NCBI RefSeq assembly: GCF_020103725.1
Contig: NZ_JAHXBG010000008.1
Location: 372,001 to 436,000, forward strand
Reading direction: 5' to 3'
Length of the DNA stretch: 64,000 nt
DNA from: Hyalangium gracile
Lineage (GTDB): Bacteria; Myxococcota; Myxococcia; Myxococcales; Myxococcaceae
In this document: positions 8,451 through 63,405 of the stretch, in pieces
Position numbering within the stretch: position 1 is the stretch's first letter
Layout: every line of letters starts with the position of its first letter
Translations under genes and position numbers: made by a program
Notes under the pieces: generated by a model
What the model was told of the DNA's origin: nothing
Database searches by the model: none
The model's input: the letters and a program-made list of their open reading frames with translations, nothing else

Positions 8451-9254
8451 ATGTCTCTCTGTCTTCGCCGCTGTGTTCCTCTCCTGCTGCTCCTGTGCGC
8501 CACCGCGTGCCGGGAGCGCATCCAGCATGGGCTCGACGAGCGCCAGGCCAACGAGCTGCAGACGGTCCTCGTGGAGCGAGGGCTGGACGCTCGCAAGGTG
8601 CCGGAGGCGGGCAAGAAGCCCACCTGGTCCATCGAGGTGGACGAGGCGCAGGCCTCGGACGCGGTGCGAATTCTAGCCGAGCTGGGGCTGCCGAGGCCGC
8701 TGGCCGAGGCGGGCTGTGACGTCTTCGGTGGGGGTGGGCTCATCCGCTCTCCGATAGAGGAGCAGCTCTGCCGGGTGCAGGTGCTCGAGCGAGGCCTGGA
8801 GAAGACGCTCCAGGGAGTGGAGGGCGTGCTCATCGCGCGGGTGCACCTGATGGTGCCACCGCCTCCCAGGCCGGGGCAGACGGCGATGCCGGCGAAGGCC
8901 TCGGCGATGCTGCGCACGGTGCCCGGGAAGGCGGCGCGGGTTCGCCAGTCGCAGGAGCAGCTCAAGGCGCTCATCGCGGGAGGAGTGGAGGGCCTGTCCC
9001 CTGACGCGGTGTCGCTGCTGGTGGACGAGGCCGTCACGCGGGTGGAGGTGACGGCGCCTGGGAGTTCTCCGCTCCTGAGGCTGCGGGTGCTGCTGGCGGT
9101 GATGGGGGTGGTGCTCACGGGGCTGGCGGTGGCGCTGGTGTTCGTGGCGATGCGCCTGCGGCACTACCAGGCCGAGGCCGCGGTGACGCCGGTGGCTCCT
9201 CCTGTGCCCGCTCGGCCCGTGGTGGCTGCGAGCGCCGCCCGCAAGGTGGCCTGA
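8451..9254 (+). CDS. sctJ: Type III secretion inner-membrane ring lipoprotein SctJ (FliF-like)
   Basis: A 267-residue lipoprotein. ATG 8451 was chosen over a TTG at 8436 because GAGGAAGG (8438-8445) precedes it. The signal peptide CVPLLLLLCATAC ends in a lipobox Cys at about residue 17. Two ring-building motifs follow (ELQTVLVERGLDARKVPEAG; VEGVLIARVHLMVPPPPRPG), then a C-terminal TM helix (LRVLLAVMGVVLTGLAVALVFVAM) and a short Pro/Ala tail. This is the standard SctJ/YscJ layout, homologous to FliF ring domains. It forms the inner-membrane ring together with SctD, which is not present in the window. Confidence 0.93.
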   Translation: MSLCLRRCVPLLLLLCATACRERIQHGLDERQANELQTVLVERGLDARKVPEAGKKPTWSIEVDEAQASDAVRILAELGLPRPLAEAGCDVFGGGGLIRSPIEEQLCRVQVLERGLEKTLQGVEGVLIARVHLMVPPPPRPGQTAMPAKASAMLRTVPGKAARVRQSQEQLKALIAGGVEGLSPDAVSLLVDEAVTRVEVTAPGSSPLLRLRVLLAVMGVVLTGLAVALVFVAMRLRHYQAEAAVTPVAPPVPARPVVAASAARKVA

Positions 9255-9935: not shown

Positions 9936-11087
9936 ATGAACACCGCACCTCGTAGCTCCCAGTCCTCACTCCCGAAGTTCGCCAGGCTGAGCCGGCTCGG
10001 CACGCGCCGGCTCGCCCGAGCACATGTGACGTTGGCAGAGCGTCCCCAGGTAGCGCAGTGGGGAAGGCAGGCGCTCCAGGTGGTCTGCGAGGCGCTGGGA
10101 CGCGAGCTGGGCAGCCCGGTGAGCGGTACGGGCCAGCTGGTCGATGCGGTGATGGTTCCCGGGAGCGGCCTGGCGCACACGGCGGCCTTCGTCCTGCTGG
10201 ACCTGTCGATGACGGGCGGCTGCGCGGTGCTGGAGCTGGAGCTACCGGTGCTCTTCGCCGCGCTGGAGCTCCTGGCTGGAAGCAGCCAGAAGCCAGGCCC
10301 GGTGACGCGCCTCACCCGCTTGGAGGAGGCGACCACCGCCTTCTTGATTCTGTCGGCGCTGTCGGCGCTCCGGGCCCGTTCGGAGCTCTACCCCCGACTG
10401 GGCTTCAAGCTGGCGGGGGTGACGATGAACCGGGCGGAGGCGCTGGCTCGGATAGAGGGCCGCAAGCCTCACCTCTCGGTGGAGCTCTCGCTCTCGGTGG
10501 GGGAGGTGTCCGCGGGTGGCCGGCTGGTGCTCCCGGCTGTGGTGTTCGAGGCCGCCTGCAAGGACCTGCCCGTGGAGAAGGGCACGGCCATCGCGCCGGA
10601 GCTGCTCGCGGCGTCCATCGGGGCGAGGTGCTTTCTCGGGTGCACCCGACTGGCTCCCTCCTCGCTGGAGACGCTCTCGCTGGGAGACGTGATCGTCTTC
10701 GAGCGAGTCCTCCACGGAGGCGAGCACCTCTTCGGCCGAGGGCGCCTGGTGACCCGTGGCTTCGAGCTGATGGGGGAGTTCACCCCCGAAGGATTTTCCC
10801 TGACCCGCGCGCTCCGGCGCGCACTTCCCCTGGAGTCGAACATGGCAACCATCATCGAGCAGGGCGGGGGAATGCCCCCGCTGCCCGTGGATGTGGAGAT
10901 CGAACTGACGCGGCTGATGCTGCCGCTCTCGGAGCTCGCCGCGCTGAAGCCTGGCTACCTGCTCCCGCTGCGCATCAACGCCAGCGAGCCGGTGCTGCTG
11001 CGTGTCGGTGACCGCGCGGTGGCCCGGGCCGAGCTGGTCGAGATCGATGGCGAGGTCGGCGCCCGCATCCTGAGCCTGCTGCCGTGA
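9936..11087 (+). CDS. sctQ: Type III secretion cytoplasmic ring protein SctQ (FliM/FliN-like)
   Basis: A 383-residue protein. ATG 9936 follows a CAGGAG at 9924-9929; a longer in-frame start (9885) lacks a site. The N-terminal two thirds are a weakly conserved SctQ domain. The last 80 residues (LPVDVEIELTRLMLPLSELA ... VLLRVGDRAVARAELVEIDG) are a clear SpoA/FliMN-C surface-presentation domain. SctQ forms the sorting platform pods beneath the export gate with SctK, SctL and SctN. Only one SpoA domain is obvious, so any second copy in the middle of the protein is degenerate. The stop overlaps the next gene's GTG by 4 bp. Confidence 0.88.
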   Translation: MNTAPRSSQSSLPKFARLSRLGTRRLARAHVTLAERPQVAQWGRQALQVVCEALGRELGSPVSGTGQLVDAVMVPGSGLAHTAAFVLLDLSMTGGCAVLELELPVLFAALELLAGSSQKPGPVTRLTRLEEATTAFLILSALSALRARSELYPRLGFKLAGVTMNRAEALARIEGRKPHLSVELSLSVGEVSAGGRLVLPAVVFEAACKDLPVEKGTAIAPELLAASIGARCFLGCTRLAPSSLETLSLGDVIVFERVLHGGEHLFGRGRLVTRGFELMGEFTPEGFSLTRALRRALPLESNMATIIEQGGGMPPLPVDVEIELTRLMLPLSELAALKPGYLLPLRINASEPVLLRVGDRAVARAELVEIDGEVGARILSLLP

Positions 11088-53026: not shown

Positions 53027-53075
53027 CGTGCGAGCAAGTTGATCTCGGGCCAAAGTCGGGGTGAGGTGGAGGGGA

Positions 53076-54281
53076 ATGAGCCCCTCCCCTCGACAGACCG
53101 TGCTGTGTCTTGCCAGCTTCTTCAAGGGCAACCGCTTCTTCCAGCGGCTCCATGAAGAGGGCTGCTACGTCATCCTCATCACCTCGGACCGCTTCAAGGA
53201 CGAGGACTGGGCCCGGCAGTACATCCACGAGTTCCACTCCGTGGCCTCGTTCGAGGACCGCACCGCGCTCCTGAACGGTGTGGCCTGGCTGTTCCGCAAC
53301 CGGCGCATCGACCGCATCGTGGCCCTGGACGACTTCGACGTGGAGGTCGCCGCCGCCCTGCGCGAGCACTTCCGGATGCCCGGCATGGGAGACTCGGCCT
53401 CGCGCTTCTTCCGCGACAAGCTGGCCATGCGCGTGAAGGCGAAGGAGCTGGGCATCAACGTCCCGCGCTTCACGCCCGTGTTCCATCACCCGGACGTGGC
53501 CAGGTTCCTGGAGGAGGTGCCGGCTCCCTGGCTCATCAAGCCGCGCTCCGAGGCCTCCGCCGTGGGCATCAAGAAGCTGAAGAACGCGGACGAGGCGTGG
53601 GCCACCATCCACGAGCTCGGCGACCGCCAGTCGTTCCACGTCCTGGAGCAGATGATCCCCGGAGACCTGTACCACGTGGACTCGCTCATGCAGGACGGCA
53701 AGATCGCGTTCGTCGAGGTGGGGCGCTACGGCCGCCCGCTGCTGGAGGTCGCCCACGAGGGCGGCATCTACGTCACGCGCACCCAGCCGCGGGACTCGAA
53801 GGAGGCCAAGGAGCTCATCAAGAGCAACGCCGCGGTGCTCGAGGGCTTCGGGCTGCGGCGGGGCGCCTCGCACACCGAGTTCATCATCGGCCGCGATGAC
53901 GGCAAGCCCTACTTCATCGAGACCTCCGCTCGCGTGGGCGGGGCGAACATCTCGGAGATGGTGGAGGCCGCGACCGGGGTGAACCTCTGGAGCGAGTGGG
54001 CCAGGCTCGAGCTGGAGGGCGAGGGCTTCGCCTACAAGGCCCCGAGGACGCGCGAGGAGTTCGGCGGCGTCATCATCTCGCTGGCGAGGGACGAGTACCC
54101 GGACACCTCGTCGTTCAACGATCCGGAGATCGTCGACCGGCTGAAGAAGAAGAACCACATCGGGTTCGTCGTGCGCTCCCCGAAGCAGGAGCGCGTCGAG
54201 GAGCTGCTCAAGAAGTACCTGGAGCGCATCTCGCGGGAGTTCCACGCCTCGCTCCCCGCGCCTCCGAAGTCGACCTCCTGA
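53076..54281 (+). CDS. ATP-grasp family ligase
   Basis: A 401-residue protein with GGAGGGGA directly before ATG 53076. The ATP-grasp core is visible: FRDKLAMRVKAKELGINVPR (presenting the substrate), PWLIKPRSEASAVGIKKLKN (ATP lysine), LEQMIPGDLYHVDSLMQDG, and the metal-binding end PYFIETSARVGGANISEMVE. The N-terminus (TVLCLASFFKGNRFFQRLHE) is a pre-grasp Rossmann domain like those in carboxylate-amine ligases. It likely joins a carboxylate to an amine, thiol or similar. The next gene in the region, a convergent M17 peptidase, may be functionally linked. Substrate unknown. Confidence 0.85.
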   Translation: MSPSPRQTVLCLASFFKGNRFFQRLHEEGCYVILITSDRFKDEDWARQYIHEFHSVASFEDRTALLNGVAWLFRNRRIDRIVALDDFDVEVAAALREHFRMPGMGDSASRFFRDKLAMRVKAKELGINVPRFTPVFHHPDVARFLEEVPAPWLIKPRSEASAVGIKKLKNADEAWATIHELGDRQSFHVLEQMIPGDLYHVDSLMQDGKIAFVEVGRYGRPLLEVAHEGGIYVTRTQPRDSKEAKELIKSNAAVLEGFGLRRGASHTEFIIGRDDGKPYFIETSARVGGANISEMVEAATGVNLWSEWARLELEGEGFAYKAPRTREEFGGVIISLARDEYPDTSSFNDPEIVDRLKKKNHIGFVVRSPKQERVEELLKKYLERISREFHASLPAPPKSTS

Positions 54282-54314
54282 GTCGAGGGGCCCGTGCCGG
54301 ACCAGAGCGCCGCC

Positions 54315-54339
54315 AACTGGTATGCTTGTCATACCAGTT
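54315..54339. repeat. Dispersed 25-bp palindrome, copy 3 (perfect)
   Basis: Arms AACTGGTATG (54315-54324) and CATACCAGTT (54330-54339) are exact inverse complements around CTTGT. Read on the minus strand it differs from copy 1 by a single base, so it is the same element inverted. It lies between the convergent ATP-grasp and aminopeptidase genes, where it could also act as a bidirectional hairpin. No T-run flanks it. Confidence 0.8.
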
Positions 54340-54414
54340 CGCAGCAAGTCCGGCCGACAGGCAGGGGCCCGGACCACGGGCAGGGGAGACTGTCCCTGCC
54401 GAGAGCCAGGCCGC

Positions 54415-55977
54415 TCAGCCGCGCTGCCGGAGCTCGAGCGCCTCAGCCAGCGCCGCGATGGGCGAGGCGGTGGGTCTGCCGGCCTGCCAGTCCGGGGGCG
54501 TCACCACCACGCCCGAGATGTCCAGGTGCACGAACGGCAGCTTCGTGCCGCGCAGCCCCGACGCCACGTCCAGGAAGGCGAAGGGCCCCTGGTGGCCGCG
54601 CGGCGTGTCCACGCTGGCGAGCCGGTTGCTCGACAGCACGTCCTCCGTCGGCGCCTTGGGCGCGACGAACAGGTAGTCCTCGCGCCGCGGCACCGTGGAC
54701 TCGAGCGGCTCGCCCAGCAGCTCGCCGACCTCGCTCAGCGTCCGGATGAAGCCCTGCGCCCGCGCCGCCCCGTTCTCGATGGCTCCCACGTACGGCCCGA
54801 AGGCCCGGTAGACGTGGCCCGTCAGCGTCGCCACCGACACGAGCACGGAGGACGCCGGATCCGCGCCCTCCTTGAGCGCCGCCAGCAGATCCGCCAGCAC
54901 CAGGCGCCCCTCCGCGTCGGTGTTCCCGATGCGCACGCGCACGCCCGAGCGCGCCGTGATGATCTCGTCGGAGACGAACGACTCCTCGCCGATGCTGTTG
55001 CGCACCATGCCCAGCAGCGCCACCACGCGCAGCCCGGGGAGCTTCCGCTCGGCGAGCGTCCGCACCAGCCCCGCCACCGTCGCCGCGCCGCCCTTGTCGC
55101 GGGACATGCCCGCCATGCCGCCGCCCGTCTTCACGTCCGCGCCGCCGGTGTCGTACGTGACGCCCTTGCCCGCGAAGAACACGGTGCGCGTGACGGGGCC
55201 CTCCGGAACCAGCTCCAGCGAGACCACGCACGGCTTGTGGTGCTCCACCGCCATCGACGCCCGAGCCACCGCCGCGAGCAGCGGATAGCCGGACACATCC
55301 CGCTGCACCGACACCTTCACTCCCGTGCCCGCGAACGCCTCCTCGCAGTACGCGGCGAAGCGCAGCGGGGTGAGGCGCTCGGGGCCTCCCGTCACCAGAT
55401 CCCGGCAGAGCGCCCGGCCCGCCTCCAGCGCGGAGGCCCACGTCGCCGCCTGGCCCGGCAGGTTCAGCACCGAGAGCTTGCGCAGCTGCGTGGGCGGGGC
55501 CCGGCGCGCGGGAGACTCCCGCGCCTCCAGCGGCTCCCACGCCGTGGCCGCCGACGCCAGGGTGCAGACCTCCAGGGCGCGAGCGAAGCGCGGCTCCTTC
55601 GGCACGGCGACGGCCAGCAGCGGATGCGACGCCCCGGCCTGCACGGCCCGTGAGATGGCCACGGCGCTCGCCTCCGACAGCACGCGGCAGTCATCCGTGT
55701 CGTGGACGATGGGCGCCGTCGGCATGACGATGATCCGTCCTCCCGGCGCGGAGGGCACGGCCACGACGGTGGGCCCCGGGCTGCCCTCGGCCAGGGCTCG
55801 ATCCACGGAGAGTGCGGCCTCCACCGCCCGCTTCCACTCCTGCGGCAGCCCCAGCCCCTCCAGCGCGGCCCTCAGGGGCGCCGGAGCGATCACCACGAGT
55901 GCGTCCGTGTCCTTCGCCGCGGAAGAAATCTCCGCGGCACCAGCGATGCTGATTGGCGTGTTCACGGCCGGCACCAT
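54415..55977 (-). CDS. pepA: M17 leucyl aminopeptidase
   Basis: A 520-residue peptidase (ATG 55977 with GAAAGGA about 8 nt upstream; the frame is open further but not family-like). The catalytic domain has the M17 signature NTDAEGRLVLADLLAA, with the two-metal site in FAGKGVTYDTGGADVKTGGG and DKGGAAT. The N-terminal half is the less conserved macro-like domain. It removes N-terminal amino acids from peptides. The adjacent convergent ATP-grasp gene and the amidoligase cluster downstream on the plus strand (divergent, 78 bp apart) suggest a shared peptide substrate. Confidence 0.92.
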   Translation of the reverse strand: MVPAVNTPISIAGAAEISSAAKDTDALVVIAPAPLRAALEGLGLPQEWKRAVEAALSVDRALAEGSPGPTVVAVPSAPGGRIIVMPTAPIVHDTDDCRVLSEASAVAISRAVQAGASHPLLAVAVPKEPRFARALEVCTLASAATAWEPLEARESPARRAPPTQLRKLSVLNLPGQAATWASALEAGRALCRDLVTGGPERLTPLRFAAYCEEAFAGTGVKVSVQRDVSGYPLLAAVARASMAVEHHKPCVVSLELVPEGPVTRTVFFAGKGVTYDTGGADVKTGGGMAGMSRDKGGAATVAGLVRTLAERKLPGLRVVALLGMVRNSIGEESFVSDEIITARSGVRVRIGNTDAEGRLVLADLLAALKEGADPASSVLVSVATLTGHVYRAFGPYVGAIENGAARAQGFIRTLSEVGELLGEPLESTVPRREDYLFVAPKAPTEDVLSSNRLASVDTPRGHQGPFAFLDVASGLRGTKLPFVHLDISGVVVTPPDWQAGRPTASPIAALAEALELRQRG

Positions 55978-56055
55978 CCCACAGGTCCTTTCGGGAAGAG
56001 GCCTGGAAAACCACTGGGCAGCACCGGAAGACGACCGGTATCTTGCTCGCCCCCC

Positions 56056-57273
56056 ATGTCCGACACCTCGACCAAGCCCAAACCCGCTGGTGACGTCGTC
56101 TACGGCGAGCGTCCGCTCCTCGAGCAGGAACCCCACACCGTCTGGCCGCAGGGTGAGCCCTCGCTGGAGGAGATCCTCCCCATCGCCAGCCGCCTCGCGG
56201 TCAACCCGCACTACCAGGGCAGGGGAGTCACCGCCGCGTTCCTCGACTCGGGCTTCTTCGCCCACCCGGACCTGATGGAGCCGCGCTGCCGCATCCGCCG
56301 CTACTACGACATCATCAACGACAAGGAGGGCCTGGAGCTCATCCGCAAGCCGGACAACTCCATGTGGCACGGGATGATGACGTCCACCGTGGCCGCCGGA
56401 AACGGCTTCCTCTCCGACGGGAAGTACAAGTCCCTGGCGCCGGAGATGGACGTCGTCCTGGTGAAGGTGGGTCACCTGTCGCGCGTGAAACATGACGACA
56501 TCGCCCGGGGCATCCGCTGGGTCATCGCGCGCAAGGACGAGCTCAACATCCGCGTGCTCAACATCTCGGCCGGCGGCGACTACGAGGCCAGCTACCTGGT
56601 GGACCCCATCTGCCAGGCCGCCGAGGACGCCGTCCGCGCCGGCATCACCGTCGTCTGCGCCGTCGGCAACGCCGCCCACGGCAACAACCGCGTCATCTCC
56701 CCGGCCAGCACCCCCGCCGTCATCACCGTGGGCGGCCTGGACGACCGCGGCGACCCCCGCCTGGGCCGCATGGGCACCTATTGGTCCTGCTTCGGCCCCA
56801 CCATCGATGGTCTGCAAAAGCCGGAAGTCATGGCGCCGGCCATCTGGGTCGTCGCCCCCATCCTCCCGGACACCCCCACCGCCCAGGAGGCGGAGCTGCT
56901 CACCCTGCTGGACGGCACCCCGGACTCAGAGCTGCTCAAGGTCCTCAACGAGCGCCCCGGCGTCATCCGCGAGCTGGACTCGGTGAAGAACGATGCGCCC
57001 TACCTCATCCGACAGCTGATTGGCTCCAAGCTGAGAGACCAGAAAGTCGTTTCAGGGGCCTACAAGCACGTGGATGGCACCTCGTTCGCCGCCCCCATCG
57101 TCACCAGCATCGTCGGGCAGATGCTCGAGGCCAATCCCAGGCTGGCACCGTGGGAGGTCAAACGAATTCTCATCGCTACGGCGCGGCGGCTCCCGAGCGT
57201 CGCCGTGGAGCGCCAGGGGTGGGGCGTCGTCCAGCCGGCGGCGGCCATCACCGAGGCGGAGCGGCGCCGCTAG
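56056..57273 (+). CDS. Intracellular S8 family peptidase (subtilase)
   Basis: A 405-residue serine protease with the triad Asp64 (AAFLDSGFFAHPDL), His105 (MWHGMMTSTVAAG), Ser343 (VDGTSFAAP) and oxyanion Asn205 (CAVGNAAHG). It lacks a signal peptide or prodomain, so it should act in the cytoplasm. Between KPEVMAPA and GTSFAAP there is a helical, Glu/Leu-rich insert of about 75 residues (about 267-340); ordinary subtilases have a short loop. The insert may gate the active site or bind a partner. It begins a plus-strand run with a class I amidotransferase, ATP-grasp and GCS2 ligases. Confidence 0.9.
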   Translation: MSDTSTKPKPAGDVVYGERPLLEQEPHTVWPQGEPSLEEILPIASRLAVNPHYQGRGVTAAFLDSGFFAHPDLMEPRCRIRRYYDIINDKEGLELIRKPDNSMWHGMMTSTVAAGNGFLSDGKYKSLAPEMDVVLVKVGHLSRVKHDDIARGIRWVIARKDELNIRVLNISAGGDYEASYLVDPICQAAEDAVRAGITVVCAVGNAAHGNNRVISPASTPAVITVGGLDDRGDPRLGRMGTYWSCFGPTIDGLQKPEVMAPAIWVVAPILPDTPTAQEAELLTLLDGTPDSELLKVLNERPGVIRELDSVKNDAPYLIRQLIGSKLRDQKVVSGAYKHVDGTSFAAPIVTSIVGQMLEANPRLAPWEVKRILIATARRLPSVAVERQGWGVVQPAAAITEAERRR

Positions 57274-57333
57274 CAGGTTTGGGGCCACCCCCCCTTTTCA
57301 GCGCGGAGAGAAACCGGGTAGACGGGGGAGCAC

Positions 57334-58290
57334 ATGACTCCCGCTGGCCGTTCCCGGAACCTCCGCATTGGCCTGATCGACATGAACAACGGTGTGCCCA
57401 ACCAGGCCATCCGTTCGTTCAAGTTCATCATCGCCACGTTCGCCGAGCGCGTACGTGCCCGTAACCCAGGGCTCACCGTCACCACCACGCACGTGCAGCC
57501 GCGCAACCTCGGCGAGGCTCCGCCCGCCGACTGCGATCTCTACCTGAGCTCCGGCGGCCCCGACGCCCCCGTGGACGGCTTCAAGGAGAGCTGGGCCACC
57601 GGCTTCCGCTCCTTCATCGACCGCATTGTCGACGGGCAGCTCCAGCACGGCAGCTCCGCGGCGTCCCTCTTCGCCGTCTGCTACTCGTTCGAGATCGCCG
57701 TGATGCACTTCGGCATCGCCGGGATGATCCCCCGCGAGCGCAAGTTCGGCATCATGCCCGTCTACCCGACGGACGAGGGCCTGGCCTCGCCCATGTTCGC
57801 GCCCTTCGGGGACCGGCTCTTCGTCTGGGAGCACCGCAGCTGGCAGGCGGTGGACCTGGACGAGAAGAAGCTGCGCGAGCTGGGCGGCACGCTCCTGGCC
57901 CGCGAGAGCCGCGACGGCCACAGCAAGGGCCGCGGGCTGATGGCCTTCCGCTTCGCCTCCGGCGTCGAGGGCACCATCTTCCACCCCGAGGCCGACCGCC
58001 CCGGCGTGCTCAACTGGCTCGAGCGCCCCGAGCAGGCCAAGGCCGTCATCGAGACGTACGGCGAGCTCATCTACCGCCGCATGTGCAAGACCATTGATGA
58101 CCCCACCCGCCTGGCGCGCACCTACGCGCTGCTGCTGCCCGGCTGGATGGCGCGCTCGTTCAACGCGCTGGCGCTGGATCGTGACTGGGCGCCGGTGGAC
58201 ATGCCGACCTATGACGCGGCCGTGGGCCTGGATGCCTTCGGCCGTCCTTCAGCGGCCGCGGCCAACGTCGCGGCGGAGACCAACTCGTGA
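57334..58290 (+). CDS. Class I glutamine amidotransferase-like protein of amidoligase cluster
   Basis: A 318-residue protein with a GATase-1 fold: an N-terminal strand RIGLIDMNNGVPNQAIRSFK, GGPDAPVDGFKESW, nucleophile Cys116 in SLFAVCYSFEIAVMHFG and His in GTIFHPEADRPGVL. It differs from classic GATases by FAVCYSFEIAV instead of GICLGHQ. Some such proteins are peptidase-like rather than ammonia donors. A C-terminal 90-residue helical extension (RLARTYALLLPGWMARSFNA) is unusual. Its stop overlaps the ATP-grasp start (GTGA). It may supply ammonia or hydrolyse the ligase product. Confidence 0.8.
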   Translation: MTPAGRSRNLRIGLIDMNNGVPNQAIRSFKFIIATFAERVRARNPGLTVTTTHVQPRNLGEAPPADCDLYLSSGGPDAPVDGFKESWATGFRSFIDRIVDGQLQHGSSAASLFAVCYSFEIAVMHFGIAGMIPRERKFGIMPVYPTDEGLASPMFAPFGDRLFVWEHRSWQAVDLDEKKLRELGGTLLARESRDGHSKGRGLMAFRFASGVEGTIFHPEADRPGVLNWLERPEQAKAVIETYGELIYRRMCKTIDDPTRLARTYALLLPGWMARSFNALALDRDWAPVDMPTYDAAVGLDAFGRPSAAAANVAAETNS

Positions 58291-59288
58291 ACAAGAAGAT
58301 TGGCATTCTGGCGGGGATGGAGTGGGACCACTTCCCCATGGCGCTCATCGAGCGCATCAACAAGGTTCCGGGCTTCGAGGCGGAGCTGGCGAAGATCGAC
58401 GCGACGCCGGAGAACTTCACCGCGAAGTACGACGTGCTCGTCGACCGCATCAGCCACGAGGTGCCGTTCTACCGCTTCCACCTCAAGGCGGCGATGCTGG
58501 CCGGCACCTACGTCATCAATGATCCGTTCTGGTTCTCGGCGGACGACAAGTTCTTCGGCTTCTCGCTGGCCACCCGCATTGGCGTCACCGTCCCCCGGAC
58601 GATGATGCTGCCGCAGCGCGAGTACATCCCCGCCATCGATCCGCGCCGCTCGCTCAACAACCTCGTCTACCCGCTGGACTGGGAGGGCATCGCCCGGTAC
58701 GTGGGCTTCCCGGCCATCTGCAAGCCGGCGGATGGCGGCGGCTGGCGCAACGTCAACCGCGTCAACGACATGGACGAGCTGATGCGCGTCTACAACGAGT
58801 CCGGCCAGCTCGTGCTGACGATGCAGCAGTTCATCGAGTTCGATGACTACGTGCGCTGCCTCGTCATCGGCCGCGAGCACGTGCGGATGATCCGCTACGA
58901 CGTGAAGGCGCGCGGCTACCTGCCGGACAAGAACTTCCTGCCCGCGTCGCTGGAGGCCCGCATCATCGACAGCGCGCGCGAGCTCAACCGGGCGCTCGGC
59001 TACGACATGAACTCGGTGGAGTTCGCCATCAAGGATGGCGTCCCCTATGCCATCGACTTCACCAACCCGGCCCCGGACATGTATCCGCACCACATCCTCC
59101 CGGACAACTACGAGTGGTGCCTGGAGAAGATGTCGGAGCTGTGTATCAGCGCCGCGCGCGAGGGCCGCAAGAACGACATGAACCACGCGTGGCAGCGCTA
59201 CCTGGAGAAGAAGACGGCTCGGCCGGCGGCCTCCACCGCCGCTCCCCGCGCCGCCGCTGCTGTGTCCGCCGTCGCGAAGGCGAGGTAA
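58287..59288 (+). CDS. ATP-grasp family ligase of amidoligase cluster
   Basis: A 333-residue protein starting at GTG 58287, coupled to the amidotransferase. Elements: an N-terminal Rossmann-like part (KIGILAGMEWDHFPMALIER), GFPAICKPADGGGWRNVNRV (ATP-binding Lys), MQQFIEFDDYVRCLVIGREH, and the metal end DMNSVEFAIKDGVPYAIDFT with NPAPDM. This is a standard ATP-grasp catalytic set and predicts ligation through an acyl-phosphate. It ends in a poly-Ala tail. The next gene starts at TAATG overlapping this stop, so both are coupled. Substrate unknown. Confidence 0.87.
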   Translation: MNKKIGILAGMEWDHFPMALIERINKVPGFEAELAKIDATPENFTAKYDVLVDRISHEVPFYRFHLKAAMLAGTYVINDPFWFSADDKFFGFSLATRIGVTVPRTMMLPQREYIPAIDPRRSLNNLVYPLDWEGIARYVGFPAICKPADGGGWRNVNRVNDMDELMRVYNESGQLVLTMQQFIEFDDYVRCLVIGREHVRMIRYDVKARGYLPDKNFLPASLEARIIDSARELNRALGYDMNSVEFAIKDGVPYAIDFTNPAPDMYPHHILPDNYEWCLEKMSELCISAAREGRKNDMNHAWQRYLEKKTARPAASTAAPRAAAAVSAVAKAR

Positions 59289-60448
59289 TGCACATGGGAG
59301 CATCGTCTCTGCTGGATGGGCAGTTCACGCTGGGTGTCGAGGAAGAGTTCCAGATCGTCGACGGGCAGTCGCACGAGCTGCGCTCGTACATCTCCAAGAT
59401 GATGGACGACGGCAAGACGGTGCTCCGCGAGCGCGTCCGCGCGGAGATGCACCAGTCCGTCGTCGAGGTCGGCACCGGCATCTGCAAGAACATCAGTGAG
59501 GTCCGCTCGGAGCTGACCGAGATGCGGCTCGAGCTGGACCGGCTGGCGCGCAAGGGCGGGATGAACATCGTCGCCGCGGGCACCCACCCGTTCAGCGACT
59601 GGAAGAACCAGGAGATCACCCCCAACCCGCGCTACCACCTCATCGTGGAGGACCTGCAGGACATCGCCCGAGGCAACCTCATCTTCGGGCTCCACGTCCA
59701 CGTGGGCATCAAGGACCGCGAGACGGCCATCGCGCTGGCCAACCAGATCCGCTACTTCCTGCCGCACCTGCTGGCGCTCTCCACGTCCTCGCCGTTCTGG
59801 CTGGGCCGCGCGACGGGCCAGCAGTCCCAGCGCACGCTCATCTTCAAGCGCTTCCCGCGCACCGGCATTCCTCCCACGTTCGAGAGCTACTCCCAGTTCA
59901 TGGAGTACGTGGACCTGCTCATCCGGACCAACTGCATCGACAACGGGAAGAAGATCTGGTGGGACGTGCGCGTCCACCACGTCTTCGACACGGTGGAGGT
60001 CCGCATCTGCGACATGCCCACCAACCTGCACCAGGAGATCGCCATCGTCTCGCTGATCCAGGCGCTGGTGGCCAAGCTCTACCTGCTGCAGCGCCGCAAC
60101 ATGTCCTGGCGCCACTACATGTCCCCGCTCGTCGAGGAGAACAAGTGGCGGGCCAGCCGCTACGGCATCCGCGGCAAGCTCATCGACTTCGGCCAGCAGA
60201 AGGAGCGCCCGTACGCGGAGCTGCTCGAGGAGATGATCGAGTTCGTCTCCGAGGCCTCGGACTTGCTGGGCACCTCGCATGAGGTCGCCAACGTGCGCAA
60301 CATCCTCAAGGAGGGCACGTCCGCGGAGCGGCAGCTCGAGGTGTACAAGAACAGCAACAACGACACCCGCGCGGTGGCGCGCTGGCTGGTGGAGGAGACG
60401 ATGCGAGGGGTGAGCTCGTCGCCCGCGTCCGCCAGCCAGACCGGGTAG
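59288..60448 (+). CDS. Carboxylate-amine ligase, YbdK/GCS2 family
   Basis: A 386-residue protein coupled by TAATG to the ATP-grasp gene, with GGCGAGG before it. GCS2 features: LGVEEEFQIVDGQSHELRSY (Glu-rich metal site), EVGTGICKNISEVRSELTEM, a GTHPFSDW block, LIFGLHVHVGIKDRETAIAL and VRICDMPTNLHQEIAIVSLI. The family ligates glutamate or a related amino acid to an amine, with ATP. Classical YbdK shows weak gamma-glutamyl-cysteine activity. Here, with two ATP-grasps, a GATase and a subtilase, it likely makes a peptide-like metabolite. The gene is convergent with the next one. Confidence 0.9.
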   Translation: MHMGASSLLDGQFTLGVEEEFQIVDGQSHELRSYISKMMDDGKTVLRERVRAEMHQSVVEVGTGICKNISEVRSELTEMRLELDRLARKGGMNIVAAGTHPFSDWKNQEITPNPRYHLIVEDLQDIARGNLIFGLHVHVGIKDRETAIALANQIRYFLPHLLALSTSSPFWLGRATGQQSQRTLIFKRFPRTGIPPTFESYSQFMEYVDLLIRTNCIDNGKKIWWDVRVHHVFDTVEVRICDMPTNLHQEIAIVSLIQALVAKLYLLQRRNMSWRHYMSPLVEENKWRASRYGIRGKLIDFGQQKERPYAELLEEMIEFVSEASDLLGTSHEVANVRNILKEGTSAERQLEVYKNSNNDTRAVARWLVEETMRGVSSSPASASQTG

Positions 60449-60457
60449 GCCTGGCGG
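60429..60457. terminator. Hairpin between convergent GCS2 and ATP-grasp-like genes
   Basis: Arms CCGCCAG (60429-60435) and CTGGCGG (60451-60457) form a perfect 7-bp stem around a 15-nt loop spanning the stop of the GCS2 gene. The position between convergent genes suggests a bidirectional transcript end. There is no T-run, so it would not be a classical intrinsic terminator. Confidence 0.4.
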
Positions 60458-60479
60458 CTTTCCAGGGCCGAGGGCGGGG

Positions 60480-61697
60480 CTACTCCGCCTTCGGCCAGAG
60501 CGCCACGGAGGAGCCGACCCAGTCCAGCCCCTTGTTGAAGTCCACCCCGAGCATCTTGCCTCGGGACAGGCGGACGAGGTTCAGCAGGGGCTGGGGCAGC
60601 GCCTGGCCCTGGTCCTTCAGGCACAGCACGCGAATCTCCGCGGCCACGCCCGCGCCGTCCGGCGTCCACATCTCGCGCGCGTAGGTGATCTTCCGCTGGA
60701 GGATCCACCCGTCGCGCTGCTCCGCCGGCACGCCGGCCACGTCCTCGGGCGTCGGGTCCACCTTCACGCCCGCGCCCGCGTAGGAGAACAGCGGCTTGAG
60801 CACGTAGTTCTCGAGGTCCGCCGGCACCTGCTTGAGCTGCGACAGGGGCGTGGCCCTGGGCACGGCCGGGTGGTCCAGCAGGGGCAGCGAGAACTTGGAC
60901 CACATCCAGTACCAGTTGGGATGCGGGAACCAGCTCACGTCCAGCTCGTCCGTGAACTTGAATGCCATGGGCGGCTTCTTCTGCTGGAGCTCGTCGAAGA
61001 CCACCCGGTTGTAGATGCGCCGGATGGGCAGGCGCCGGCCGTCCTTCATGCGGAAGAGCTGACGGCCCTCGCGGATGACCTCCGTCACGCAGACCGGATC
61101 AATGCCCGTGAGCAGCTGCGTGGCCACGAAGTCCGGGAGCGTCTTCTGCCGGTGCGGCTCGATCTCCAGCAGGATGACCTCTTCCGTCGGGTGGCCGGCC
61201 AGCAGCGCGCGGCGGAAGAAGGCCAGCGCGCTGTCGAAGTCGTAGCCGGGAGCGAAGCAGTGGAAGCCTCCCGAGGAGACGCCCGGGATCTGCTGCTGCA
61301 GCAGCTCGTTGAAGATGCGCGCCTGGATCATCGTGAAGGCGAACAGCGAGGGGAACGCCTGGAGCTCCACCACGCGCCCGTCGAGCTCTCCGTCCTCGCC
61401 GCGCACCACGGCGAAGTCCACGGTCATGATGTCCGGGGACGCGTCCTGTCCCGGCACGTCGAACTCGGGCGGGACGGCGCGGCGGGCGCGGGCCAGCTTC
61501 TCCGGCTCCGCCAGCTGGGCGATGATCTCGCTCGTGTAGCGGAAGATGCGATCGCGCGTGGCCGGCGGGATGAAGAGCGGCGACTCCGCGAGGCGGTACG
61601 GCACCGGGCCAACCTCGGACTGCAGCCGGTTGAGGTACCGCTCGTAGAACTCGGGGGAGAAGCGCTGGTTGTAGACGCGACGGAGGTCGGGGTGCAT
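60480..61697 (-). CDS. ATP-grasp-like protein of amidoligase cluster
   Basis: About 405 residues (start ATG 61697; the frame extends 7 codons more). The N-terminal half (YNQRFSPEFYERYLNRLQSE, IFRYTSEIIAQLAEPEKLAR, VELQAFPSLFAFTMIQARIF) is unfamiliar. The C-terminal part has ATP-grasp traits: YVLKPLFSYAGAGVKVDPTP (ATP lysine and Gly-rich loop), WILQRKITYAREMWTPDG and EIRVLCLKDQG (metal-binding acid). It resembles circularly permuted or glutathione-synthetase-like ligases. It converges on the GCS2 gene with 31 bp between stops. Presumably a second ligase or amine-adding enzyme of the pathway. Confidence 0.68.
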   Translation of the reverse strand: MHPDLRRVYNQRFSPEFYERYLNRLQSEVGPVPYRLAESPLFIPPATRDRIFRYTSEIIAQLAEPEKLARARRAVPPEFDVPGQDASPDIMTVDFAVVRGEDGELDGRVVELQAFPSLFAFTMIQARIFNELLQQQIPGVSSGGFHCFAPGYDFDSALAFFRRALLAGHPTEEVILLEIEPHRQKTLPDFVATQLLTGIDPVCVTEVIREGRQLFRMKDGRRLPIRRIYNRVVFDELQQKKPPMAFKFTDELDVSWFPHPNWYWMWSKFSLPLLDHPAVPRATPLSQLKQVPADLENYVLKPLFSYAGAGVKVDPTPEDVAGVPAEQRDGWILQRKITYAREMWTPDGAGVAAEIRVLCLKDQGQALPQPLLNLVRLSRGKMLGVDFNKGLDWVGSSVALWPKAE

Positions 61698-61856: not shown

Positions 61857-63272
61857 TCACTCGTGGGACAGGTAGCGCACCACGCTGGAGCCGAAGAGCT
61901 GCTCCGCCGTCTGCCGCGGGCCTCGCGGCTCGTGCGCGCTGGCCAGGCGCGGCCTGCCATCCGGCCCCGGAGGGCCTGGCTCCACCACGGCGAGCCGGGG
62001 ACCCAAGGGGGTGTCGGCCATGGCGATGATGGGCAGTCCTCTCGCCGCCGCCTCCAGCAGGGCGGCCTTGCCTTCCACCAGGCGCCAGCCTCGCGAGAGC
62101 GCGTCCTCGCTCAGCCACTTCCAGAGCTCCCCGAGGGTCCCTGGCCGGAAGGTGACGGGGTAGCCCGTGGCGAACGCGCGCCCCAGCGTGGTGTGCAGGG
62201 AGTTCATCACGTCGAAGACGAAGAGGTGCCCCGCCTCGAGCGGCTCCTTGGGGGTCGGCTTGTAGCGAGGGTTGGTCGCCACGGCGTACTGGTCGATGAC
62301 GGCCTGGGTGAGCGCCACCGTGCGCTTGCCGGGGAGGCTCTCCACGGGGGCCTGGACGGACTGCGTGCGCGGCGTGGAGGCACCCGCCGCGGGGGCATCG
62401 GGCCGAACCGAGGGGAAGGGGGCACGGCTGGAGCGCGACGAGCCCTTGCGCAGGGACACGCTCTTCTTGTCTCGCTGGGCCTGCTCGAGCAGCTGGTGGA
62501 GCTTGTTGGCCTTGACCGCCACCGACGTGGAGAGCCCCACCTTGCGAGGTGCCTCGAGGTCCGGTGGCTTCGCCTGGCGAGGGGTGGGCTCCTCCACGCG
62601 GAGGGTGAGCTGGCGCGGAGCCTCCGCGGGACGCTGGGCCGGTCCCGGCCGTGGCGCCGGAGAGAGGGGCCCGGTCCCGACGGCGCTGCGCTCTCCCGTT
62701 CGCACCGCTGCGCGCTCGCCCGTCTTCACCGCGCCTGGCGAGGTGCGAGAGGGCTCGCTCGAGGGGGCCACCACCACCACGGGGGCGGCGGGTGGCGCGG
62801 CTGCCGGTGCGGCGGGGGCGGGTGGCTGCCGGGAGGGGCTCGGCGGTGGTGCCATGGGGCGCGGAGCCGGTGGCGGCTGGACGCGTGGCGCCTGCACAGG
62901 GGCTCTGACTGGCGTGGGCGCCGCACCCTTTTTTTCGGAGTCGGGTGTGAGCGGGGCGTGGATGGGCACGGCCGGGGAGGGGATGGGCACGGCCTTCATC
63001 GGCACCGTCGGAGCGCTCGAGGCATCTCGCTCCTTCGGCACGGCGATGGGGCGCATGGGCACCGTGGGCGCGCTGGAGGAGCGATCCGAGCCCGGCACCG
63101 GAATCGGCCGCATGGGCACGGTGGGCGCGCTGGAGGAGCGGTCCGCCTCCGGCACGGGAATGGCCTTCATGGGAACCGTCGGAGCCGTGGAGCCTCGATC
63201 CTCCGCTGCATCCTTGGGGGATGGGCGGGAGCGGGGCGGTCCCCCACCGGGAGTCGAGTTGTCCTTTCCCAT
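61857..63272 (-). CDS. Repeat-containing protein with degenerate amidase-like C-terminus, unknown
   Basis: A 471-residue protein (start ATG 63272, GAGG about 10 nt upstream). Residues 28-100 contain four 19-residue repeats (APTVPM-[KR]-x-I-x-VP). Residues about 100-280 are Pro/Ala-rich and disordered. Residues about 365-455 fold as a domain (AGHLFVFDVMNSLHTTLGRA; GKAALLEAAARGLPIIAMAD; LGPRLAVVEPG). By eye this resembles a CHAP/NlpC-type amidase, in which xxCNxFVxDV and GHxAVV are usual, but the catalytic Cys and His positions are not Cys/His here. Function unknown; it might bind peptidoglycan or regulate an enzyme. Confidence 0.55.
   Translation of the reverse strand: MGKDNSTPGGGPPRSRPSPKDAAEDRGSTAPTVPMKAIPVPEADRSSSAPTVPMRPIPVPGSDRSSSAPTVPMRPIAVPKERDASSAPTVPMKAVPIPSPAVPIHAPLTPDSEKKGAAPTPVRAPVQAPRVQPPPAPRPMAPPPSPSRQPPAPAAPAAAPPAAPVVVVAPSSEPSRTSPGAVKTGERAAVRTGERSAVGTGPLSPAPRPGPAQRPAEAPRQLTLRVEEPTPRQAKPPDLEAPRKVGLSTSVAVKANKLHQLLEQAQRDKKSVSLRKGSSRSSRAPFPSVRPDAPAAGASTPRTQSVQAPVESLPGKRTVALTQAVIDQYAVATNPRYKPTPKEPLEAGHLFVFDVMNSLHTTLGRAFATGYPVTFRPGTLGELWKWLSEDALSRGWRLVEGKAALLEAAARGLPIIAMADTPLGPRLAVVEPGPPGPDGRPRLASAHEPRGPRQTAEQLFGSSVVRYLSHE
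62988..63185. repeat. Tandem 57-bp repeats (four units) within the 61857-63272 gene
   Basis: Codons for APTVPM recur at residues 30, 49, 68 and 87, an exact 19-codon (57-bp) spacing. Conserved neighbours are IPVP and DRSS. Length change by whole units would keep the frame. The units differ by several substitutions, so the array is not recent. Confidence 0.75.
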
Positions 63273-63405
63273 GGAGCGTCTACCTCGGAGGCCACGGTGG
63301 GGTGCGACGTCGGCCATCGTAGCGCGCCGGCTGCTCCAGGTCAGGAGCCAGGCTGCCGGCCTCGTTCATGGCTCGGCTACCGCAGCAGGCAAGGCCCGCG
63401 AGCCG

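Follow-up and report, generated by a model that had tools for sequence, protein, structure and literature searches.

Gene cluster and proposed pathway

Peptide systems combining a circularly permuted ATP-grasp protein (CP_ATPgrasp_2, PF14403), a GCS2-type ligase and an alpha-beta hydrolase were reportedly predicted by Iyer et al. in 2009. According to one publication, linked ligases in the synthesis of peptide-derived metabolites often act in successive ligations (PMC4431377). A publication on E-64 synthesis describes the fungal ATP-grasp enzyme Cp1B, which joins epoxysuccinate to an amino acid, and terms YgiC and YjfC peptidylpolyamine synthetases (PMC12568646). Here, a gene cluster of Hyalangium gracile was analyzed that is located in a stretch of 64,000 nucleotides (G000:C8:372001-436000, hereafter the window) of the 11.7-Mb host genome assembled in 81 contigs. 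Based on the DNA letters, it had been proposed (the original prediction) that five genes, encoding a subtilase (S8), a glutamine-amidotransferase-like protein (GAT), an ATP-grasp protein (ATPg), a GCS2-family ligase (GCS2) and an ATP-grasp-like protein (G7), form an amide or peptide pathway. Family membership, predicted folds and co-inheritance support this proposal, and a further ATP-grasp protein, ATPg0, belongs to the gene set as its sixth member.

Four ligase types are represented in the set, namely GCS2/YbdK, RimK-like ATP-grasp (ATPg), L-amino-acid-ligase-type ATP-grasp (ATPg0) and YgiC/glutathione-synthetase-type ATP-grasp (G7). Together with the amidotransferase fold predicted for GAT and the encoded peptidases, these four ligases of different type fit a successive formation of amide bonds. 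It is moderately probable that the cluster specifies a dedicated cytosolic pathway, independent of ribosomes and nonribosomal peptide synthetases (NRPS), in which consecutive ATP-dependent ligations form the amide bonds of a small peptide or peptide-amine. The chemistry of this pathway is predicted from families, folds and co-inheritance. The following genes were considered:

53076-54281, plus strand: ATPg0, L-amino-acid-ligase-type ATP-grasp (ATP-grasp_4 and ATP-grasp_3 above cut-off; similar to 4wd3 and 3vot)
54415-55992, minus strand: M17, leucyl-aminopeptidase-type peptidase, an optional associate with uncertain start codon (Peptidase_M17, E=2.5e-57)
56056-57273, plus strand: S8, cytosolic subtilase (Peptidase_S8, E=3e-35)
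57334-58290, plus strand: GAT, class I amidotransferase-fold protein (predicted fold; Cys116/His217/Glu219)
58287-59288, plus strand: ATPg, RimK-like ATP-grasp (rimK_fam, E=3.5e-10)
59288-60448, plus strand: GCS2, YbdK-type carboxylate-amine ligase (PF04107, E=1e-62; PRK13515)
60480-61697, minus strand: G7, circularly permuted ATP-grasp by fold (predicted fold, YgiC-like)

The open reading frame (ORF) list and the sequence placed all five genes of the original prediction at the coordinates it had given. Its description of coupled or near-coupled plus-strand genes with a convergent ATP-grasp gene was borne out as well, while the number of members rises from five to six, ATPg0 having been overlooked upstream of S8, past the M17 peptidase gene. 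GAT, ATPg and GCS2 are coupled on the plus strand, with overlaps of four bases (GTGA) between GAT and ATPg and one base (TAATG) between ATPg and GCS2; S8 and GAT are spaced by 60 bases, and G7 is convergent with GCS2. A Pfam scan of nine proteins of the window recognized S8 and GCS2 and returned no match for GAT, ATPg and G7.

Co-inheritance across Myxococcota

The distribution of GAT, G7, ATPg0, ATPg, a cluster-associated esterase (EST) and M17 was surveyed in 195 Myxococcota genomes, the host included. GAT was detected in 23 genomes at E<=0.001, with 14 strong matches (E<1e-90) and a next value of 2.4e-30. G7 was found at E<=1e-20 in 15 genomes, representing the 14 strong-GAT genomes (E<1e-175) and G191 (1e-81). 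Moreover, ATPg0 (E<=1e-60) was restricted to 13 of the 14 GAT/G7 genomes, the 181 others having no match at this threshold; the GAT/G7 genome devoid of a strong ATPg0 match, G141, is 82% complete. ATPg matched 43 genomes at E<=0.001, and its 15 strong matches (E<1e-80) comprise the same 14 genomes and G157, in which S8 is present in fragments. The 14 genomes span ten genera and five families, and three of the seven genomes of the host genus carry the set. The chance of an identical 14/195 pattern for GAT and G7 amounts to approximately 1e-21 if genomes are independent, which they are not, phylogeny being ignored in this value.

The shared pattern of GAT, G7 and ATPg0 also includes G158, where the genes are far apart: the S8-GAT-ATPg-GCS2 block (at ~14 kb) and the ATPg0-G7 pair (at ~366 kb) lie ~350 kb apart on one contig. 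In further draft assemblies, the two parts are located on different contigs (G155, G156, G159 and G160) or the genes are distributed over three contigs (G011). Furthermore, neighbouring genes do not generally follow this pattern, since the EST family is present in 102 of the 195 genomes and M17 in seven. Between the six proteins, pairwise distances are correlated with rho 0.51-0.90, a result obtained without species control and given little weight.

In addition, 100 loci (L042-L141), nine of which are marked as duplicates of others, were surveyed for gene order. Besides the window, six distinct loci contain all five genes within at most 21 kb, and S8-GAT-ATPg-GCS2 occur together in 11 distinct loci. 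In L042, L043, L045, L046 and L048, ATPg0 accompanies the other five genes within one locus. Since all five genes recur in one locus in six distinct cases, their grouping exceeds chance and the set is real. The original prediction had named as a possible objection that no other genome might contain the five genes together; this objection does not hold in view of the six distinct loci.

Ligases GCS2, ATPg and ATPg0

GCS2 reached 523 bits against NCBIfam PRK13515 (cut-off 371), also exceeded the TIGR02050 cut-off and is similar to the YbdK-type structures 1tt4 (E=3e-49) and 1r8g (E=5.5e-49). By its sequence, the protein belongs to the YbdK-type family. The corresponding protein of the Chloroflexota cluster L098 scored 531 bits against PRK13515 at the same cut-off of 371. 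In the window, the PRK13515-type GCS2 adjoins the RimK-like ATP-grasp ATPg, which matched NCBIfam rimK_fam with E=3.5e-10, under the family cut-off. Residues K146, G150-152, E245, D257 and N260 of ATPg are invariant in 18 aligned relatives. ATPg0 is similar to the solved L-amino acid ligases 4wd3 (E=1.2e-20) and 3vot (E=2.8e-16); the designation of ATPg0 as L-amino-acid-ligase-like expresses this sequence relation.

A second ATPg paralogue was observed beside the esterase in L046, L050, L054, L069 and L074 (43-45% identical where measured), in L046 and L050 also beside an M61 peptidase. Its position beside the esterase in five loci suggests that this paralogue is a further ligase in some genomes.

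Predicted folds of G7 and GAT

AlphaFold models of G7 and GAT were built from within-family alignments. The G7 model (405 aa; predicted local distance difference test, pLDDT, 83; predicted template modelling score, pTM, 0.85) matched YgiC with Z 23.0 (3.8 A, 342 residues). Glutathione, glutathionylspermidine and trypanothione synthetases as well as Cp1B (Z 19.6) were also matched at Z 18-23, as was likewise seen with Foldseek, and the matches to YgiC and the glutathione synthetases span the whole length of G7. The first 25 structural matches range from Z 23.0 to 18.3 and are followed by values of 10.0 and below (about 6). Because its fold matches YgiC and glutathione synthetase, G7 is, as modelled, a divergent circularly permuted ATP-grasp of the YgiC/glutathione synthetase/GspS fold. 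The term ATP-grasp-like used for G7 in the original prediction stood with regard to ATP-grasp and is refined to the YgiC/glutathione-synthetase type with circular permutation. Invariant residues of G7 include E111, Q113, K268, K301, G308, G310 and R376. Cp1B and YgiC/YjfC, described in the E-64 publication (PMC12568646), are precedents of this fold in which an amino acid or an amine is linked to a carboxylate.

At the profile level, G7 had no match among solved structures, and the profiles of G7 and ATPg failed to align. A near full-length match of G7 was obtained to the profile of X450, a protein of other phyla (E=3e-4), at a probability of only 38.6. G191, which has no GAT match, encodes divergent G7 homologues at three places, each on a separate contig (L162, L163 and L164).

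The GAT model (318 aa, pLDDT 87) showed a class I amidotransferase fold with Z about 21. Matched structures include 1o1y (glutamine amidotransferase TM1158, Z 21.2), DnfC (20.7), the MetA-type homoserine acyltransferase 2ghr (20.5) and gamma-glutamyl peptidase 1 (20.4). Since these values are tied at 20-21, GAT may be an amidotransferase, a gamma-glutamyl hydrolase or an acyltransferase, all three being compatible with the model. Cys116, His217 and Glu219 are invariant in all 14 aligned sequences. The GAT profile gave E of 0.13 or worse against solved structures, and an hhalign comparison with peptidase C26 aligned ten columns, all round the HPE motif, and did not establish sequence homology. 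Because profile searches of solved structures were weak or empty, the assignment of G7 and GAT rests on their predicted folds.

In L060 (G091:C20:28001-47900), a GAT homologue (at 9243, 33% identical) has as neighbours radical-SAM-like proteins, a MATE-like exporter and an ATP-grasp protein scoring 74 bits against the ATPg0 profile, as named by eye. Such surroundings are reminiscent of a natural-product cluster, which hints that GAT-family proteins may act in biosynthesis.

Regarding the subtilase, all 14 aligned S8 sequences, that of the window among them, share identical catalytic motifs (DSG, HG and GTSFAAP). The S8 N-terminus, inspected by eye without a predictor, showed no apparent signal peptide.

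Related loci in other phyla

Genome contigs were scanned with the ATPg alignment, and the best 80 of at least 575 stretches encoding a relative were analyzed; the loci are hence selected for ATPg, and all counts given for the 80 loci and their subsets refer to these best 80. According to their labels, 34 loci are of Myxococcota-type or delta-proteobacterial origin and 46 belong to others; L132, labelled Pleurocapsa, resembles the Chloroflexi loci, and its label may be wrong. Profiles built in this study represent the circularly permuted ATP-grasp X450, the esterase EST and C26, the C26-type protein of the other-phyla loci. One EST protein corresponds to PF00756 and one C26 protein to PF07722 (E=4e-60), and one X450 protein reached E=2.5e-7 and 30.4 bits against Pfam PF14403 (cut-off 32). 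Moreover, the X450 profile finds the glutathionylspermidine-synthase-like structure 3n6x (E=1e-11).

Among the 80 loci, GCS2 was present in 48, X450 in 40, EST in 36, S8 in 22 (L121 weak at 44 bits), GAT in 17, C26 in 14, G7 in eight and ATPg0 in eight; X450 or G7 occurred in 48 and GAT or C26 in 31. The 46 loci of other phyla contained X450 (37), GCS2 (29), EST (29), C26 (14), S8 (7), ATPg0 (5) and G7 (1), and GAT in no case. Many contigs are short, and 47 of the 80 loci have more than 3 kb upstream and more than 4 kb downstream; in these, GCS2 was found in 32, X450 or G7 in 30, GAT or C26 in 22, EST in 21 and S8 in 15. The combination of ATPg, X450 and GCS2 is found in 29 of the 80 loci, 17 of which additionally contain EST and 12 C26. 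X450 and G7 co-occur in none of the 80 loci, and the same applies to GAT and C26. The Polyangiaceae locus L071, which unites GAT, EST, ATPg and X450, links both cluster forms, and in L116 (labelled Ignavibacteriae) ATPg is accompanied by G7. In Chloroflexota, EST, ATPg, X450 and GCS2 are arranged as a compact operon. Overall, the labels of loci with relatives of the set include Chloroflexota, Gemmatimonadota, Acidobacteriota, Planctomycetota and Myxococcota.

Neighbouring genes

At E<=1e-60, the seven Myxococcota genomes carrying M17 comprise five of the 14 genomes with the system and two others; on these numbers, M17 was rejected as a core member. The window cluster contains no esterase (PF00756 alpha/beta hydrolase). 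Two homologues of the cluster esterase are encoded elsewhere in the host (G000:C10:248279-248989 and C2:525304-526035), and the esterase was rejected as a member of the set in the host, both copies being unlinked and the family being widespread, as given above. In G158-G160, the ATPg0-G7 pair is flanked on one side by a type I methionyl aminopeptidase gene and on the other by a sensor kinase gene; the aminopeptidase was located at 10048-11085 (minus strand) of L156, whose proteins were scanned, and L158 and L159 appeared similar by eye. Next to G7 in the window, positions 61860-63317 (minus strand) encode a proline-rich protein of 486 aa without Pfam or NCBIfam match, for which a homologue was present only in L042 among L042-L061. 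Base composition was uninformative concerning a horizontal acquisition, with G+C values of 0.65-0.69 for the six genes, 0.74 for M17 and 0.67-0.73 for 4-kb bins of the window.

Proposed reaction sequence and alternative explanations

In the proposed pathway, GCS2 would catalyse the initial amide formation, the carboxylate probably being glutamate-like, and the RimK-like ATPg and the amino-acid-ligase-type ATPg0 would extend the product by one residue each. G7 may cap the product with an amino acid or an amine, by analogy with the use of spermidine by YgiC/YjfC. GAT would either cleave off a gamma-glutamyl unit or supply ammonia, and S8 together with variable aminopeptidases (M17, M61) would trim or turn over the product.

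Several points weigh against this pathway. It is predicted from genes, and subtilases are uncommon in small-peptide synthesis. The nucleophile signature of class I glutamine amidotransferases is C-x-G-x-Q; in the 14-sequence alignment, GAT lacks this signature and carries C-[YH]-S-[FY]-E instead. Similarly, E-x-N, the Mg-binding motif of the YgiC/glutathione synthetase/GspS fold, is not present in any of the ten G7 sequences, which have E111-x-Q113, whereas E138-x-N140 is found in ten of ten X450 sequences (columns paired by profile alignment). Because E-x-Q stands where X450 has E-x-N, catalysis by G7 may be altered. Concerning distribution, GAT is matched weakly in nine further genomes, and G191 carries weaker G7 homologues without GAT. 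Among the 47 loci with ample flanks, ATPg is found without any other profile in four (L077, L079, L080 and L101), and 15 are devoid of GCS2. Finally, the exclusivity of GAT and C26 and of G7 and X450 is largely confounded with phylum.

Protein tagging, in which the ligases would assemble a short tag of a peptide or amino acid on proteins and the co-inherited S8 and GAT would remove it, is rather unlikely. RimK modifies ribosomal protein S6, and ATPg is RimK-like; the clusters keep a subtilase with intact catalytic motifs, and S8 scores 478-538 bits in six of the 46 other-phyla loci (L098, L104, L108, L111, L128 and L132). However, no conserved tag or target gene was seen in the clusters inspected, and the substrates known for the nearest structural relatives of G7, for the YbdK family and for L-amino acid ligases are small molecules. 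A protein-modification cycle spread over several phyla, in which the four ligases assemble a peptide tag, with no ribosomal tag involved, and the subtilase and an amidotransferase-like hydrolase remove it, is considered distinctly improbable. Equally doubtful is a salvage of amines or peptides by gamma-glutamylation: GCS2 would add a gamma-glutamyl group to an amine, further enzymes would alter the conjugate, and the group would then be cleaved off by GAT or C26, comparable to the role of PuuD in the utilization of putrescine. Four ligases exceed the needs of salvage, even though the C26 protein (PF07722) in 14 of the 46 other-phyla loci and the proximity of the GAT model to gamma-glutamyl peptidase 1 (Z 20.4) would suit this explanation. 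An aldehyde-dehydrogenase-like ORF, named by eye, is common to L074, L076, L099 and L138 and may be a chance neighbour or a link to amine metabolism, but the other 76 of the 80 loci, short contigs included, are without it, and the shared ORFs, inspected by eye and partly annotated, included no recognizable oxidase. The shared-ORF clustering was dominated by antisense frames and was taken as a hint only.

A graspetide-like ribosomally synthesized and post-translationally modified peptide (RiPP), crosslinked by the ATP-grasp enzymes on a ribosomal precursor and cut by the subtilase, is very improbable. Subtilases mature some RiPPs, and S8 weakly matches PatA and QhpE, but gaps within 53061-61697 measure about 140 bases or less, so that a precursor gene would not fit into the cluster. 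Small ORFs in larger gaps of 11 loci yielded 210 cross-locus matches, all of them between L045 and L064, which represent the same genome; no small ORF was common to different genomes in the examined gaps of these loci. A precursor-peptide gene was accordingly rejected for the cluster itself. Glutathione or a related housekeeping thiol as product is scarcely credible: GCS2, together with the glutathione-synthetase fold of G7, is reminiscent of both steps of glutathione synthesis, but the host has a separate GCS2-family glutamate-cysteine ligase (TIGR01436-like, 377 bits, under the cut-off of 463) and a probable GshB (PF02955, 223 bits), and the set is absent from most relatives. In controls, the GshB family was found in nine of 14 named genomes, some of which are not expected to make glutathione, and is a loose marker; the glutamate-cysteine ligase search was positive in five of the 14, and both families are widespread. 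Housekeeping functions of the ligases, raised beforehand as a possible objection, found no support in view of the patchy occurrence of the genes (3/7 in the host genus, 14/195 in the phylum) and the separate enzymes of the host. Known phage defence was rejected, since PADLOC matches were limited to S8 (subtilase 69 bits, IetS 27 bits) and six of seven proteins were without match.

Comparison with known systems

Judged by titles and the openings of abstracts, none of the publications found in literature searches deals with this gene combination. The general class was reportedly already predicted in 2009, and the six-gene form represents a variant of a biochemically uncharacterized kind. The common inheritance pattern of four amide ligases of different type suggests that their product is peptide-like and undescribed. 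Since relatives recur across several phyla, explaining one set could account for many unannotated operons and could also supply matched ligases for biocatalysis.

A circularly permuted ATP-grasp is shared with the Alpha-E/transglutaminase/CP_ATPgrasp_1 system (DUF403/404/407), as described (PMC3597751), whereas no Alpha-E or transglutaminase match was present among the nine window proteins scanned. The E-64 pathway (Cp1B and an amide bond synthetase) likewise forms amides stepwise and independently of NRPS by means of an ATP-grasp of glutathione-synthetase fold; it is fungal, however, and the available text mentions no GCS2, GAT or subtilase for E-64 (PMC12568646). Bacterial L-amino acid ligases (4wd3, 3vot/BL00235) resemble ATPg0 in sequence but differ in that ATPg0 is one of four ligases of a co-inherited set, its activity being predicted. 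The peptide-spermidine ligases YgiC/YjfC and glutathionylspermidine synthetase share the fold of G7 over its whole length (Z 23-20); G7 deviates by an identity of 14% or less, by E-x-Q for E-x-N and by its multi-gene context. The Iyer-type CP_ATPgrasp_2 system reportedly has in common with the window cluster a RimK-like ATP-grasp, a PRK13515-type GCS2, peptidases and a circularly permuted ATP-grasp, to which G7 may correspond by its predicted fold. In contrast to that system, the window cluster is devoid of the esterase, GAT replaces C26, and G7, which has no Pfam match, stands where other phyla have X450.

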